Positions 10,086-64,000 of a stretch of DNA of 64,000 nt are shown one piece after another; the first letter of the stretch is position 1, and each line of letters begins with the position of its first letter. The notes under the pieces are model-generated. The model was not told where the DNA came from, did not search any database, and saw only the letters and a program-made list of their open reading frames with translations. The position numbers were made by a program, and so were the translations under genes. The DNA comes from Sipunculus nudus (taxonomy: Eukaryota > Annelida > Sipuncula > Golfingiida > Sipunculidae). The DNA lies in assembly GCA_026874595.1 (NCBI GenBank), contig CM049316.1, forward strand, positions 22,715,839 through 22,779,838, given 5' to 3'.

Positions 10086-10295
10086 TCTGGAAACAATTTG
10101 TGTGGATATACGCATGGACAGACAGATGGACAGATGAACAGACAGACAGACAGGGTTATTATTATAGGGCATCCACTTGTGATCAATAAACACACCAGGC
10201 TTTTGGTCACTAGATGGAATCATAGCCGAGAAACTGACATGACTATTGTCATTTATAGTAAAATAAATAGAAAAAATATTTGTAAAAATTAGAAA

Positions 10296-10650
10296 AAAAT
10301 ACAGATGGCGCCACCACTTTTCCGGAACTATCAAAACTAGTCATGCGCAATATTCAAGGCAAGTTTCATGCCAATCCATGCATTCATTATCAAGATATTG
10401 GAGTTTTGTATCAAATTTATGATTATTCTGGAGGGTATTTACAAGCCCCATAGCTTGAAGGATATAGGTCGCAGTGACCTAATTTCAGGTTTAAAAGGAG
10501 ATTTTGTATTGACCTCCCTGGATTTTCACTTAGAAGTTTCTGGGACCAGCAGTAAAGATTTGTGCCCTGCTAATGGACGACTGGACTGCCCGACGACGGA
10601 CAAAGCGCCATTTCTATACCTCAGTTGACTTATAGTCAGCTGAGCTAAAA
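10296..10650 (-). repeat. AGCTCAGCTGA-hairpin repeat family, minus-strand copy
   Basis: Read on the minus strand it starts at about 10648 with the hairpin tttagctcagctgac, then gtcgtcgggcagtcc, 'agcagggcacaaat', 'cctgaaattaggtcactg' and ends near 'ggtggcgccatct' (10300-10312). This order is shared with 43600-43870, 60725-61650 and 63181-64000. Confidence 0.75.
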
Positions 10651-37199: not shown

Positions 37200-37493
37200 T
37201 TTAATGTCTCTTGCGGTCGACAGATGGCGCTAAACACTGGCACTTCGGTTTCGTTTCATTCAATGGTTTCGTTTGTGTGGTGCGGTTCTGTAGATACAAA
37301 ATTTAGTCATGTGACCTGTGAGGTAAGCAACATGCGCAGCATGATGCGCAATGGCACCGAAAATAAGCTGGTTTCCTGTCAAAACCACAGATGAACGAAG
37401 TGATCTGTCAAATGGAGAAATAATCTAAAATACCAAGCGACAGCGGTGCCCAAGGCAACAAACACCTAGCCAGGGAACACACCAACATCAAGT
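37200..37493 (+). promoter_or_regulatory. SNRK upstream region: promoter-proximal motifs and 5' UTR candidate
   Basis: GC content rises here relative to the flanks. Visible motifs are an E-box/M-box-like GTCATGTGAC (37306-37315) and two ATGCGCA motifs close to NRF1 half-sites (37332-37349). A 21-codon upstream open frame (ATG 37332, TGA 37392-37394) would lie in the leader if transcription starts upstream of it. The start site itself cannot be fixed from sequence. Confidence 0.35.
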
Positions 37494-38088
37494 ATGCATA
37501 GAAGGGTGCAAAAAAGCGGGTATGATGGCAAAATAGCGGGTCTTTATGACCTTGAACAAACGATTGGCCAGGGGCATTATGCTGTTGTCAAACTGGCCCG
37601 ACATGTATTTACCGGTGCCAAGGTAGCTGTCAAAGTAATTGATAAAACAAAACTGGACGAAGTGTCCAAAGCACATCTTTTCCAGGAAGTGCGATGCATG
37701 AAATTAGTACAGCATCCAAATGTGGTACGATTGTATGAAGTAATTGATACTCAAACCAAGCTTTATTTGATTCTGGAGCTTGGAGATGGGGGTGACATGT
37801 ATGATTACATTATGAAGCATGAGAAGGGGCTCCAAGAAGAAGATGCAAGGAGGTACTTTAGGCAAATCGTACAAGCTATCAATTATTGTCATCAGTTACA
37901 CGTTGTTCATAGAGATCTAAAACCCGAAAATGTGGTCTTCTTTGAAAAACTTGGTATAGTGAAACTGACTGATTTTGGTTTTAGTAACAAGTTTATACCA
38001 GGAACTATGTTAGAAACAAGTTGTGGATCCCTTGCTTATTCGGCACCTGAGATTTTACTAGGAGATTCTTATGACGCCCCAGCTGTAG
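37494..38088 (+). CDS. SNRK: SNRK (SNF-related serine/threonine kinase), first coding exon, gene truncated by window end
   Basis: Encodes residues 1-198 of an AMPK-related kinase, nearly identical in layout to vertebrate [16 protein letters not shown] leader (9-20), glycine loop (G25-x-G27), catalytic Lys47 in VAVKVIDK, Glu65 in [16 protein letters not shown] (139-146), DFG (160-162), activation-loop Thr175 in [12 protein letters not shown], the expected LKB1 phosphorylation site, and APE (184-186). The exon ends GCTGTAG|gtgagt in phase 1, exactly where the family continues 'DIWSLG'. ATG has A at -3 and matches the family start. The remaining kinase lobe, UBA-like region and C-terminus are absent from the window; SNRK acts in nucleus and cytoplasm downstream of LKB1. 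Confidence 0.95.
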
Positions 38089-38099
38089 GTGAGTATGCA

Positions 38100-38108
38100 G
38101 CTTTATTG
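38100..38108 (+). repeat. 9-bp target site duplication, left
   Basis: GCTTTATTG, identical to 41022-41030, lies immediately outside the left TIR and 12 bp after the last base of the SNRK exon. Confidence 0.9.
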
Positions 38109-38345
38109 GGCACTCGGTAAAACCCGGAATTTCCGAGGATATTCCGAGATTCCTCGGAATAAAAGTTTGAGCCATTTCCCTCAGCAGTGGATCCCTGACA
38201 GTAGGAAAAAAGTACCCATACCTAAAGAATGAACAATTATCTTTCTATTTATTGAAGGTTCCGTTCTAAATTTCGACTTTTTAAGGCGTATTCTACGGTT
38301 TTTCCGAGCCAGACCTGACCGGCCAGGGACGACGGCCATGTTTAT
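38109..38345 (+). repeat. Left terminal inverted repeat of the 2.9-kb transposon
   Basis: Pairs with about 40775-41021. The outer 125 bp are highly similar between arms; similarity fades inward near 'ggccatgttta'. Confidence 0.85.
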
Positions 38346-38809
38346 GGTGGATCATACCTAAATCCGGTGGTATCAAGAGAATTCTTGGAGAGTATATACG
38401 GCTGATAGGCCTGGATAAAAATATGGCCAGTAAAGAGAGTGAATTGTAGATTTAACATATATATACTCCTTTTACTGGTAATAAGTTCCTGGAAATATTG
38501 TGGAAGGCCACAACTAGAGAAAGGGGCTGGGCATGGAGAGAGATTCTACAATTAATGGAAATGGCATTACATTTGGACAGTGAGCTTGGTTACAGCAGTA
38601 TCTGTTTCTACAAGTGTCTTCATTTACCACAGGCATTATTAAAATTCTATTTTGTTATTAGTCCAATGAACAATGAACAAAGAACACATTTTAAAAAATC
38701 ATTTATTAACAACTGAACAACTGAAATATGTACCAATGGAAAGTAAATTAATTAAGCCTCATGAAATACACTTGATACCATAATAAAATATATAATTTAA
38801 TTAAAATAC

Positions 38810-39240
38810 CAATGTAAAGTATTATGAAAACGAAAAACAGTACAAATTATAGTGAAAACAACATCTTGAAATACATATTACACCAGATGAAAACGTATGA
38901 AATATTTACAAATGATAAGTGAAATGTTCCTGAAGTACATGTTATACCAGGTGTAGCCATGACAACATGACACTCGATCAGGCCTTCGGAAATAAACTGA
39001 TAGGGCCTCAGCTCATCTAAAATCGACGTTTGGGGTGACAAGCTGTCGGTATACCAGGTGTTGATGTATGAAATATTTACATAATGAACAGTGAAATGGT
39101 CATCAAATACATGTTATACAAAGTGAAAATGTTTGAAATATTTACAAATGAAAAGTGAAATGATCATGAACTACACATATTACACCTGGTACCAATGTAT
39201 GAAATATTTACAAATGCAACAAACAGTAAAAATCAATGAA
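38810..39240. repeat. Degenerate tandem repeat of about 75-80 bp inside the transposon
   Basis: Five or so diverged copies of a unit with 'gtatgaaatatttacaaatg', 'agtgaaatg(g/t)tcatgaa', 'tacatgttataccaggtg'. A non-repeat insert (about 38955-39060) interrupts the run. Confidence 0.7.
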
Positions 39241-39264
39241 AACTTTGGACATTATAAACCATAT

Positions 39265-40391
39265 TTACTTACAGTTTGCACACATCCAAAGCCTGCTTTT
39301 CGGTGCTCTGTCTAATTTATCACAACTGAGGTGAAACCAATTAAAACACTTATCACACTGAATTTGATTTTCATATTCATCTGAAAGTCCACATTCACAG
39401 GCAATGCCTATTAAAATATTTTCATTAAATTTTGGCTTTAGGATGAGTTTCAAAAGTGAATTTTTGGGAAATGGGCTGAAAACTCCTTTTTCTAAACAAT
39501 TTATTAAATGGATTTGTAGTCTATTATGGTTGTATTTTGTGGCTATAGGTAATTTCTTAGTAAATAGATATTCCACAATGTTTGCTATTGAAAATAAACC
39601 GCAGTCCCTACTGCCTATTTTTTGTTGTTGGATTTTTGGAATCTTTACTTTCAGTGTTGACTGTGGCTTCCCATATAGTCTAGACAATTGTATTCTAAGA
39701 CTGTTTGTAAGCTCCCCTGTAGCAGCACTATCTAAAATATGTATTTCATTTTTCTCTTTTACTACAAAATCTGAATGTTATTGTCATTGCTAACTTGTGT
39801 GAATCTAACATTGTATCCCCATTTTCTGGTGTTTTGATTCTTCATTGGCAATTTTAAAGTGTCCTGGAGGTCTGTGTCATTTAGGATTTCATTAAATTGA
39901 TTTTTCAGTATCTGACTGGTTGCCTGCATGTGGTCATTTTCTAAATATTCATTATTACTTATAATTTTCTTATGCTGCAATGTTAAATTTAAATGATTCA
40001 GCCATGAATTTCCAGCAGACCTGAGGCAAATTTTTTTAGATGGCTTTTCTTTTGGGCTTTCTACTTTAGTTAAATCTTCTGCTGAAGAACGACTTTCAAC
40101 ATTATCTCTTTTTTTCTTCACATTCAGCTTGCAAGTTTTTGTTTGATTGCGAGTGTCAGGTTCATCATGTGATGTATGCAGTTGTTCATTTCCATGTGCA
40201 TGTGTTGGTGTTAAAGTGTGTGTTTTTACAGAAGTCAGTCTTTTTGAAGCACTTTTAAAGATTGGTGATAATGCAACATCAAGCAAACAAGTGTTTTCCT
40301 CAGCTTGGGCTATAGAATTTTCTTGCTCAAATCTTAGTTTTTTCTTAACTTTTATGTTTAGATGTTTCATCTGATATGACAAATATATCAA
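39265..40391 (-). pseudogene. Ulp1-type (C48) cysteine protease with C-terminal PHD finger, broken transposon gene
   Basis: The upstream part (39762-40391) has a Lys-rich linker and the start of a protease domain (SWLNHL, NDHMQATSQILKNQF, DLQDTLKL, NIQIL), then stops. The frame shifts and continues from about 39761 as VVKEKNEIHILDSAATGEL, LSRLYGK and QQKIGSRDCGLFSIANI. Asp (ILDSA), Gln (QQK) and Cys (RDCG) of the catalytic set are visible, but the segment where the family has its catalytic His-Trp is missing at the break. A C4HC3 PHD finger follows (CEC, CDKC, HLSC, CANC) and ends in TAA at 39265-39267. The 5' end is blocked by stop codons before 40391. Such protease/PHD modules occur in transposon-encoded proteins of animals; this copy should be inactive. 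Confidence 0.8.
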
Positions 40392-40483
40392 CTACTATAT
40401 GAGTAGGTATACAACCAATATATGTATAAATATGTATAACTATTTAACACAATTTTTAATACTGATACATGATTTTAAATATC

Positions 40484-40486
<3 letters not shown>

Positions 40487-40540
<54 letters not shown>
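40487..40540. repeat. (TA)n microsatellite inside the transposon
   Basis: About 27 TA units, between the broken protease gene and the right TIR. Confidence 0.93.
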
Positions 40541-40774
40541 TTGTACATTTTATTACACAATTATACTTTATTATTACTTATAGACCTAAAACATGAAATC
40601 ATAATGTAAATAATGCACTATTGAAGAATTAAACGATGTAATCCAACATTTAATAATGAATTTGTCAACAGAAATTGAGAAAGTTGCAGGTTTTTACTTA
40701 TGTGGTTTTGAGTGGGCCCGGTCGCCGTGGGTCAGGGTTCTCCGGGAATTCTCCAGGCGCTTCCAAAATATTAG

Positions 40775-41021
40775 TCAACATGGCAGTCGAACAGGGCCGT
40801 TTGAAAAGATGTTCATAAAATCGTCCGCTGTACCTTAATAAGTCGAAGATTAGAACGGAACCCGTAATAAATGGGAAGATTATAGTTCATTCTTTAGGTA
40901 TGGGTACTTTTTTCCAACTGTCAGGGATCCTCTGCTGAGGGAAATGGCTCAAACTTTTATTCCGAGGAATCTCGGAATATCCTCGGAAATTCCTCGGAAA
41001 TTCCGGGTTTTACCAAGTGCC
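40775..41021 (-). repeat. Right terminal inverted repeat of the 2.9-kb transposon
   Basis: Inverse of 38109-38345 with an additional 11-bp TTCCGAGG-type unit near the terminus and scattered substitutions inward. Confidence 0.85.
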
Positions 41022-41030
41022 GCTTTATTG
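41022..41030 (+). repeat. 9-bp target site duplication, right
   Basis: GCTTTATTG, identical to 38100-38108, immediately outside the right TIR. Confidence 0.9.
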
Positions 41031-42061
41031 GGATCAGAGTTTATGTACAGTTTGGTTGTTCTCGTCTTAATGCATGTCAGACAATGTCTACTTTACTCGC
41101 AATTGTAATTGTTTAAAAAAGATCATTAGGTATATTGGCTTATTGCTTCAATGTGTTTTTTTATTACCTGAACCAGTCGAGACATGTTGCTTACATAATG
41201 AGCATTATATTATGTATTGCAACCCTTTATTTGTATCATATAAAAAAGTATGACTTCAGTCTCCACTGTTGTGAAATGTGGTTTCTCTTATGGGATCACA
41301 TCAAAACTAGGGGTAGCCAGAAAAATATAGAAAAGTCTATTTGTTCTATATATTTACAAAGTTTTCAAATGTGAGTACATATGTATTCTGAAACTGCCAA
41401 TAGATATCATCAAGACCATTGGTTTACATTTAATATATCAAAATATGCGACCCTTGATGAACACAAAACTTTCAGTTAGCAGACTGTAAGCACAGCCATT
41501 CCCATGTTCTGTAGTACTAAGTACTTAGTCCTGTACAGTGGTATATCTGAGGGATTTATTTGAACCCATATTGAAACGAATTGTCCTCTTCCTGTCAAAT
41601 GGTATTTAATTACCTCATCCAAGGAGGTAATGTTTTCAACCATGTCTGTCAGGTTTGTCTGTAATCAGAAGTTACACAAAAAGTACTGAATTGTTTGAAC
41701 TTATTTCCACAAAACTGTGAACCTGTTCTGACTAGAACATCGACCAGGAAAGACCCCATTAAAGTTTGATGTTAATCTGCATTTAAGAGGCAAAGCTAGT
41801 GGGATTGTTTTGCCTTGTCAGTGTTGTTTTCTATTCAGGCCATTCTAGTGTATTAGGCTCATATCTGTCTTTACATGTACAATATAACCTCAGACTGGCC
41901 AAATTTGTGAGAGGTCTTTTTGTTTTATTGTTGCTTTGATAATTTATCTTACTTGCTATTCTCAACCACCATGTGTTGTTTTGCAGCATGTTTCTGACAT
42001 GCATAAGTGTGTCATTTTTTCCTCAGTCCCCCAGCATTCACCAGTAACTATAGCAATGTCT
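41031..42061. other. SNRK intron segment, mostly unrecognised
   Basis: Contains a short dispersed-family fragment (about 41612-41660, 'acctcatccaaggaggtaatg') also seen near 52165 and 54010. Otherwise nothing. Confidence 0.45.
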
Positions 42062-60724: not shown

Positions 60725-61650
60725 TTTAGCTCAGCTGACTGAAAGTCATCTGAGCTATAGCGATCACTCTTTGTCCGTCGTCCGTCTGTCCGTCTGTCCG
60801 TCCGTTAACCAGGCACAAATCGTAACCGCTGGACCTAGAACCTTGTAACTTGGGATTCTGAGAGGTCCATAAAAAATCTCCTTGGAAACCAGAAATTAGG
60901 TCTCTGTTACCCATATCCTTCGAGCTATGTGGCCCCAAATTACCCCCCAGAAAAGTAAAAAATTTCATACAAAAACTTCAATATCTCATTAACTACTTGA
61001 CTGATGGTCATGATTTTTGGCATACATATTGATCATGAGATGTTACATCACTTCCTGCAGACTGGTGGCGCCACCTGTATTTTTCGATTTTTTACGAATT
61101 TTTTTCTCTATTTTTGAGACCTTTAAAAATGTGAACATCTGTTAACAAGGCACAAATCATAAAGACTGGACTTAGAATCTTAATTCTTGACACACTGAGA
61201 GGTCCATGAAAAATCTCCTTGGAAACCAGAAATTAGGTCTCTGTTACCCATATCCTTCGTGCTATGGGGCCCCAAAGTACCCCCCAGAATAGTAAAAAAT
61301 TTCATACAAAAACTTCAATATTTCAATAACTACATCACTGATGGTCTTCATTTTTGGCATACATATTGATCATGAGATGTTCAATCAGTTCCTGCAAACT
61401 GGTGGCGCCACCTGTACTGTTTGATTTTTTACGATTTTTTCCTCCATTTTTGAGACCTTTGAGGATGCTGTCATCTGTTAGCGTGGCACAAATCGTAACG
61501 ACTGGACCTAGAATCTTCATTTTCGACACACTGAGAGACCTATGAAAAGTCTCCATGGAAACCAGAAATTAGGTCTCTGTTACCCATATCCTTCGAGCTA
61601 TGGGGCCCAAAATTACCCCCCAGAATAGTCAAAAATTTCATACAAAAACA
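60725..61650 (+). repeat. Family A: hairpin head, GTCC tract and 335-bp tandem body, copy with three units
   Basis: Hairpin head 60728-60756, (GTCCGTCT)n tract 60774-60806, then units starting at 60806, 61139 and 61479 with 'gttaac.aggcacaaatc', 'ctccttggaaaccagaaat', 'aggtctctgttaccc', 'accccccagaa' and, in the first two units, an intact GGTGGCGCCACC (61064, 61401). The third unit is cut off where family B begins. Confidence 0.88.
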
Positions 61651-62650
61651 TGACCTTTCCTCTCTATCCAGTGTCCATTTGTGGGTCTGTTTCCACTCAT
61701 AAACCCTCATATCTCGGGAACCGTTTGACCGATCAGGAAATAAAATTGATACAAATGTAGCCCTTGGATTGCTTTATAACATACACAAAAAATGGTGGCA
61801 CCACCTGTAACCATGTTTGCACAGTGTCCATCTGTTCATCTGCCTTGGGTTAAATCACTCATATCTCTGCAGTGAATTGACTAATTCACCTGAAATTCGT
61901 CATGCGTATACATCCAGGATAGCTTTCTTGATTTTATGACAGGTGGCGCCACCTAAGTTCACGTTCACGCTGATGACATCCAAGCTTATATCTTGGGAAC
62001 CGTTTGACCGATCAGGAAATAAAATTTATACAAATGTAGCCCTTTGATAGCTCTGTAACATACACAAAAAATGGTGGCGCCACCTGTAACAATGTTTGCA
62101 CAGCGTCTGTCTGTTAGTCTGTCGTGGCCTAAAATCACTCATTTCTCTGTAGTGGTTTGACATAACTGCCTAAAATTTTGCAGGTTTATACATCGTGGAC
62201 AGCTTTCTTGATTTTATGACAGGTGGCGCCACCTACATTCTAGTTAACGCTGCACACATCCAAGCTCATATCTCAGGAACCATTTGACCGATTGGGCCAA
62301 AATTGTGCATGTGTTTAGATCTCACATAGGTCTTTATCATACACAAAACTGGATGGGTTACCTGCAAAGATTTTTGCACAGTGTTTGTCTGTTTGTCTGC
62401 CATGGGCAAAAATCTCTCATATACATGTAGTGGTTTGACTTTTCTGCCTAAAATTTTGCAGGTGTATACAACTTGGACAGCTTTCTGGATTTGTGGTAGG
62501 TGGCACAACCTACATACACATTTAGGCTGCAGACATCCATGCTAATATGCAACATACCTCACTCTATTTCCCCTTGCCACTCAATCCATGCCTCACTATC
62601 TGATTTTGGCAGATACATGTAGTCACTTGTCGGTTACCCGTATTCTAGTT
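61651..62650 (+). repeat. Family B repeat, copy 2
   Basis: Parallel to 53247-53959 but with an extra pair of units. Perfect GGTGGCGCCACC at 61942, 62073 and 62222, decayed at 61794 and 62496. It joins family A at 61650 without a gap. Confidence 0.87.
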
Positions 62651-62799
62651 TTAAAAGTTTACACATTTTTCTCTATTTTTGAGATATATAAATACAGACT
62701 AAATCTTGGCCTGTTGGTTAATCTGTTTGATGCTTCAGTTGAATGGGTATATACTACCATTCTGATGATAAAATTTCCTTTTGCGAATCTCTTCCCAGT

Positions 62800-62828
62800 C
62801 AGCTGAGCGTCATGACCCATGGGTCACT
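62800..62828. repeat. CAGCTGAGCGTCATGACCCATGGGTCA terminus, second copy
   Basis: Near-identical to 46009-46040 and likewise followed by 'cttgtt'. Confidence 0.65.
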
Positions 62829-62879
62829 TGTTAACATTTCTCCTCAAATTTGGTACATAAGTTGTATCTACCAATTTCT

Positions 62880-63175
62880 TGGGTGAGTTTGAAAACTAAT
62901 GACCTTGACCAGGATCTTCAAGGTCAAATCAGCTGAATTATAATTATTATCTTGTGAACACAATAACTTACGAATTCTGCGGATTTTTCCCCTCACACTT
63001 GACACAAGTTGTCTGGGAATATTTTGGGTACTGGTGACCTTGATCTTGAGGTTCATATTTGCGTAATCCAAGGTTTATTTACTCAAATGACCTTCAAGGT
63101 CAAATCTGCTGAAATCTGGAATCATTGTTTTAAGATAGTGCATATTTTACCCAACATTTTTTTTGATGGCCCATT
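62880..63175 (+). repeat. Family D units
   Basis: Two to three units with 'tgaccttgacc', 'tcaaggtcaaatcagctgaa', 'cacaataacttac', 'ttttcccctcacacttgacac'. They precede family A as at 60605-60722, so D+A is a recurring order. Confidence 0.75.
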
Positions 63176-63180
63176 TTTTT

Positions 63181-64000
63181 ATTAGCTCAGCTGACTGTAA
63201 GTCATCTGAGCTATAGCGATCACTCTTTGTCCTTCGTCTGTCCATCCGGCCATCTGGCCGTCCGGCTGTCTGTCAGTTAACAGGGCACAAATCGTAACCT
63301 GGAATCTTCTTACTTTACATCCAGAGAGGTTAATGAAAAAGTCTCCTTGGAAACCTGAAATTAGGTCTCTGTCACCCATATTGTCAGAGCTATGGGGCTT
63401 AGAAGTACACCCTAGAAAAACTAAAAATTTGATACAAAAGCTCTAGTATCAGTATCTGAACAACTAGTGCATTGGTCCTCACTATTCTTTGCATGCATAT
63501 GCATTAGAGTGTTTCATCAGTTCCTGCAGACTGGTGGCGCCACCTGGACTTTTTCCAATTTTTACACATTATCTTTATTTTTTAGACCGTCAAAGATGTT
63601 GTTATCTGTTAACAGGGTACAAATCATAACCATTTGACCTGGAATCTTGTATCTTGACATGCAGGAAAGCCAATGAAAAAGTCTCTTTGGAAATCTGAAA
63701 TTAGGTCTCTGTTACCCATATCCCACTACTTATAGGGCTCAGAAGTACCCCCCAGAATAACTAAAAATTTGATACAAAAGCTCTAGTATCTAAACAACTA
63801 GAGCATTGATCAGCATGATTCTGTGCATGCATATGCATCATGGAGTGTTTCCTCAGCTCCTGCAGACTGGTGGCACCACCTGGCCTTTTAAAATATTTTA
63901 ACTCATTTTTTTTCTGTATTTTTGAGACCTTCAAAGATGGGGCCATCCATTAACAGGGCACAAATTGTAACCATTGGTCCTAAAATCTTCTAACTTGACA
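63181..64000 (+). repeat. Family A copy, cut by window end
   Basis: Hairpin 63184-63212, GTCC-like tract 63230-63275, units from about 63276, 63608 and 63950. The palindrome is perfect at 63533 and decayed at 63871. Confidence 0.88.

Follow-up and report, generated by a model that had tools for sequence, protein, structure and literature searches.

The SNRK exon and the element in its intron

The window, i.e. the whole stretch of 64,000 nucleotides that was analysed, corresponds to C11:22715839-22779838 of a 1.43-Gb genome and contains an exon of the SNRK gene as well as, 12 nt into the following intron, a DNA transposon of 2,913 bp (38109-41021; Table 1). When the exon (query 37497-38087) was compared with the PDB, the best match was 5yks, an SNF-related kinase (E=1.5e-108), with MARK1 following at E=1.1e-61, and the Pkinase profile PF00069 was detected with E=8e-53; the exon product is the N-terminal part of the SNRK kinase domain. 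An open frame runs through the exon from 37470 to 38120, and across the genome the exon has a single DNA match. Using a kinase stretch as query we located the next SNRK exon on the same strand at C11:22786574-22786726 (75% identity over 51 residues). Its window-equivalent position is 70736, giving a length of ~32.6 kb for the SNRK intron.

Table 1. Positions of the features at the SNRK exon border and within the inserted element (window coordinates).
Feature	Position	Strand	Basis
SNRK kinase exon, first ATG of the open frame to donor	37494-38088	+	profile/sequence matches
5' splice site TAG/GTGAGTAT, -3 to +8, intact	38086-38096	+	sequence
Left target site duplication GCTTTATTG	38100-38108	+	sequence, end scan
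Left TIR, 178 bp; 3' end relative to the coding remnant	38109-38286	+	self-alignment
TAA met by exon read-through	38118-38120	+	open frame 37470-38120
AATAAA, inward, in the left TIR, 70 nt past the exon	38158-38163	+	motif scan
Minisatellite, 66-bp unit, 2.3 copies, between coding remnant and left TIR	39064-39216		tandem-repeat scan
C-terminal transposase remnant: end of Ulp1-type region and PHD finger	39265-39777	-	PHD PF00628 24.8 bits (cut-off 24); 33% identity to L019 residues 1074-1247
Upstream part of the transposase remnant, frame-shifted by a 28-bp deletion	39762-40391	-	25% identity to L019 residues 898-1032, E=3.3e-5
(TA)26	40488-40539		repeat scan
Right TIR, 189 bp	40833-41021	-	self-alignment
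Right target site duplication GCTTTATTG	41022-41030	+	sequence, end scan

The element is flanked on both sides by GCTTTATTG, a perfect 9-bp target site duplication (TSD) with 0 mismatches over 9 bp. A preliminary description of this DNA had let the duplication start 12 nt past the exon, at 38100, and this agrees with the exon end at 38088 and the donor GT at 38089-38090. The terminal inverted repeat (TIR) of 235 bp given in the same description is too long, as the alignable arms comprise 178 and 189 bp and are followed by scattered similarity only. Counting one 11-bp gap the two arms are 87.3% identical; with the gap excluded, 165 of 178 aligned bases are alike.

Family copies across the genome

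A genome-wide search with a 21-base end pattern, allowing up to 2 mismatches, resulted in 231 matches, 121 forward and 110 reverse, and the reversed control gave 0 on either strand. Copies for further analysis were picked among the best matches, not randomly, and both ends were sought in the window and in loci L001-L040, L023 being excluded as it contains L004. This yielded 29 copies with both ends, including the one in the window, while the other fetched loci had one end or no end; a stricter definition of the ends misses some of the 29. A perfect 9-bp TSD is present in 19 of them, the odds for a chance match of a random 9-mer being near 1 in 262,144, and the remaining 10 have 1 mismatch (n=1), 2 mismatches (n=1), 3 mismatches (n=3) or 5-9 mismatches (n=5). 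The preliminary description had regarded TIR copies lacking 9-bp duplications as evidence against its reading. Such copies do exist, since 10 of 29 have no perfect TSD, but five of these are off by 1-3 bases and the other 19 copies are perfect. The elements form a dispersed transposon family, and the TSD, the TIRs and the family copies confirm that a DNA transposon has inserted 12 nt into the SNRK intron, as had been proposed.

Both SNRK flanks match only their own locus in the assembly, and no empty allele was seen there. Apart from this missing empty allele nothing favours an assembly artefact or a local inverted duplication that arose without any transposition, and such an origin is extremely improbable given that the same ends and 9-bp duplications occur at many unrelated places, that a near-identical element is located on contig C5, and that the flanks find no second locus.

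None of the 19 perfect TSDs begins with A, 10 begin with C, and 12 have an A at position 6, which possibly reflects a weak target preference. Two copies with intact TSDs are considerably longer than the one in the window: L022 (C5:5155000-5164700) has 8,956 bp and, as judged by eye, an interior Gypsy-type retroelement with long open frames, and L021 (C3:94577500-94584000) has 5,801 bp and an internal 339-bp tandem array of 6.8 units. Three further copies on C11 (20273165, 20433196 and 20590608) have equal internal match scores and are spaced by ~157 and ~160 kb, which suggests segmental duplication. The window also contains a diverged repeat at several places (60793-64000, also 10261-10569). 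The L010 copy (C17) sits inside this repeat, and the L005 stretch (C6) matches it as well. The joined flanks of L010 align with unoccupied repeat units of the window, leaving ~10 extra bases at the junction, and because L010 is without a clear duplication the support that this lends as an empty site is weak.

Coding remnant, transposase relatives and classification

We compared the window copy, in which both parts of the remnant are open frames on the minus strand, with the protein of L019 (C14:61532000-61538500), a locus with an open frame of 1,248 amino acids. Only residues 898-1032 and 1074-1247 found a match (E up to 0.001), so that no full transposase is encoded in the window, and as nothing but a broken C-terminal remnant is left the window copy is non-autonomous. 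In the L019 protein itself the MULE transposase profile PF10551 scores 34.4 bits (cut-off 27.6) and the PHD finger scores 25.1 bits (cut-off 24); CG-1 and Peptidase_C48 are matched as well, both below their cut-offs. A CxC...CxH motif in this protein, seen by eye and unreported by Pfam, we take to be SWIM-like. In the surroundings of L019 no clear TIRs were found.

Three decayed copies, E07, E11 and E12, have the left TIR in common with the window copy, one of them over no more than the first 86 bp. Deeper inside, each contains pieces of transposase on the same strand, which suggests that the TIR family is tied to the transposase. In the search with the L019 protein Ulp1/PHD pieces were also detected in E07 and E12, and the Ulp1 domain of E07 is recognised as Peptidase_C48 (PF02902, 23.4 bits, cut-off 20.7). 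The L019 match of E11 extends only to residue 844, and the window protein finds one Ulp1-region piece there (C7:73806463-73806621, 79%). All three copies are interrupted by stops or frame breaks, in two of them the outermost bases are partly mutated, and the right TIR was not found in the stretches fetched for them; among the loci examined there was no intact transposase with these TIRs. Relative to two of the three copies the window copy has a 28-bp deletion. It shifts the frame and takes away the stretch corresponding to TQHW of E07, which presumably includes the catalytic histidine.

For the MULE superfamily TSDs of 8-11 bp are given (excerpts of PMC6446971), a range that includes the 9-bp TSD found here in perfect form in 19 of 29 both-ended copies. 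The arms of 178/189 bp with 87.3% identity correspond to the long TIRs of this superfamily. Its DDE core is represented by PF10551, which is above cut-off in L019, a locus whose TIRs were not found, and the copies with the same TIR hold homologous decayed pieces and no recognised right TIR. On these sequence features we class the element broadly with the MULEs, as a non-autonomous member whose layout resembles that of Rehavkus.

Rehavkus elements are described with a 9-bp TSD, TIRs of 26-400 bp, a PHD finger and a minisatellite before the 3' TIR, and the hosts named are arthropods and annelids only (excerpts of PMC6446971). Our element resembles them in all four features. The PHD finger (PF00628) is above cut-off in both the window copy and L019, and a minisatellite with a 64-66-bp unit lies near the 3' TIR in 9 of the 12 family sequences scanned, being absent from E11, E12 and L019; in L021 it is present, with no coding remnant to orient it. 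The agreement in TSD, TIR length, PHD finger and minisatellite with the published description would favour placing the element in the Rehavkus group and outside the MULEs in the strict sense. We consider this placement possible but rather unlikely, as aphid Phantom elements are likewise listed with a minisatellite after the transposase (excerpts of PMC6446971), as Ulp1 domains are reported for Mutator transposons, namely those of Hydra, lancelet and plants (excerpts of PMC2836005), and as Rehavkus was compared by its published description. Rehavkus was, moreover, once lumped with the MULEs in a broad analysis (excerpts of PMC6446971). A difference from Rehavkus is that the term 'ulp' is absent from PMC6446971 and that CG-1 is unmentioned in the excerpts of that paper.

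The broad-sense MULE assignment can also be set against the Mutator transposons that encode Ulp1, for which the legend of Fig. 1e in PMC2836005 announces that Ginger1 and Mutator transposases are aligned over their Ulp1 and PHD domains. The likeness consists in the MULE transposase of the relatives, a C-terminal Ulp1-type region followed by a PHD finger, and long TIRs. The window copy differs in being a deletion derivative whose Ulp1 part is broken, and its relatives in having an additional CG-1-like N-terminal stretch, which is unmentioned in the excerpts of PMC2836005. Maize Mu elements share long TIRs (~215 bp in maize) and 9-bp duplications, but their TIRs are highly similar among elements (excerpts of PMC2774946), whereas here the two arms within a copy are 0.81-0.94 alike. 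A literature search on MULEs with Ulp1 in molluscs yielded nothing; the terms CG-1, Ulp and PHD are absent from PMC13359780, and Ulp1 and PHD from PMC10294476.

At the N-terminus of the MULE transposase relatives L019, L047, L053, L055 and L043 we observed a domain similar to CG-1, which is known from CAMTA factors. The five pieces are stop-free and were hand-chosen from 40 matching genome places, L043 and L055 being close relatives. Run singly, all five pieces matched CG-1 (E 7.8e-6 to 0.0025) and no other Pfam family at E up to 1; in two of the five the match exceeded the curated cut-off. A PDB profile search with the CG-1-like piece gave no match at E up to 1, and the structure model had a mean pLDDT of 50.8, too low for a fold search. 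Among the titles and opening lines of abstracts listed for CG-1 combined with MULE or transposase, for MULEs with Ulp1/PHD or in bivalves, for Rehavkus, and for insertions near donors or in SNRK, no CG-1 MULE was found. We tentatively suggest, with slightly less than even confidence, that the family represents a Rehavkus-like MULE lineage whose full transposase would combine a DNA-binding domain of the CG-1 (CAMTA) type with the DDE core of a MULE, a protease of the Ulp1 type and a PHD finger.

Recency of the insertion and its possible effect on SNRK

The copy on C5 differs from the window copy at 19 of 2,859 aligned sites, i.e. 0.66% with indels not counted. It carries the same 28-bp deletion, and its right end and second TSD are lost. 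As the deletion is common to both copies, the break in the gene preceded the move of the element, and the low divergence from the C5 copy together with the perfect TSD argues for a recent move. The insertion thus appears to be fairly recent in relative terms. The preliminary description had likewise suggested a fairly young insertion, on account of the perfect duplication and the similar arms. Recency is supported by the 0.66% divergence, but the arms are weak evidence: their similarity of 0.93 is near the top of the range observed over 29 copies, yet L036, which has no matching TSD, also reaches 0.93. We therefore rejected arm similarity as a measure of age.

The preliminary description had further proposed that a self-complementary TIR so close to the donor could affect splice-site recognition. 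The donor consensus is intact to +8, and pairing with U1 spans donor positions -2 to +8. In nine fold windows the mean unpaired probability of donor positions -3 to +8 was 0.70-0.73 with the element versus 0.47-0.71 in the joined empty site, and at least one of the eleven positions was nearly fully paired in both cases (minimum 0.00-0.01 with the element, 0.01-0.02 in the empty site). Folding of the 3.2-kb region 38000-41200 paired 169 of the 178 left-arm bases with the right arm. As neither the local folds nor the 3.2-kb fold indicated a loss of accessibility, masking of the donor by the TIR was rejected. In this fold a 7-bp hairpin is predicted (38081-38087 with 38096-38102), its loop containing the donor GT; all of its bases are host sequence and occur in the empty site, too.

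Direct read-through of the exon meets the stop codon inside the TIR in frame, just as had been described. In the joined empty allele, however, the same frame ends at a TAA as well (41106-41108), 78 nt past the target site as compared to 12 nt with the element, and because the empty allele also stops soon, a retained intron would truncate the kinase either way. With the donor intact, its predicted accessibility not reduced and truncation by read-through expected with or without the element, the suggested effect on splicing finds no support.

The AATAAA in the left TIR is oriented inward and constitutes a candidate site for an alternative 3' end, which is possible on the basis of the motif. Of 59 TIR arms scanned, 54 contain the motif. 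Since it belongs to the TIR consensus, finding it at SNRK is no sign of selection or use. The element might nevertheless alter SNRK transcripts, either by ending them at this AATAAA or by causing intron retention, so that the kinase would be cut inside its catalytic domain. The position of the motif 70 nt past the exon and its conservation among the arms, the in-frame stop and the long hairpin, which would start 20 nt past the exon, are consistent with such an effect. We judge it to be quite improbable because the donor consensus is preserved, the predicted donor accessibility equals or exceeds that of the joined empty site, the empty allele stops in the same frame, and the AATAAA belongs to the TIR consensus with no clear GU-rich stretch, by eye, after it. 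In addition, U1 bound to a nearby donor usually suppresses such poly(A) sites, which counts against transcripts ending within the TIR. The element is probably harmless to SNRK and probably neutral for its splicing.

Taken together, it is highly probable that a cut-and-paste event placed an internally deleted, non-autonomous animal MULE at +12 of the SNRK intron, the element having been moved in trans and with little effect on SNRK. The insertion duplicated 9 bp of the target. As the window copy has kept only a broken C-terminal remnant, its transposase would have had to be supplied from elsewhere in the genome. The donor was left whole, the element would probably be spliced out together with the large intron, and little effect on SNRK is the most likely outcome.

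As an insertion this is an ordinary case, a broken transposon in a large intron, and the family may matter more. At this site an insertion lies directly beyond the U1 footprint on the donor of a conserved kinase, a clean natural situation in which carriers and non-carriers could be compared. If the proposed composition of the full transposase is true, it would connect transposases with the DNA-binding domain of CAMTA and provide a lead on the origin of this domain.
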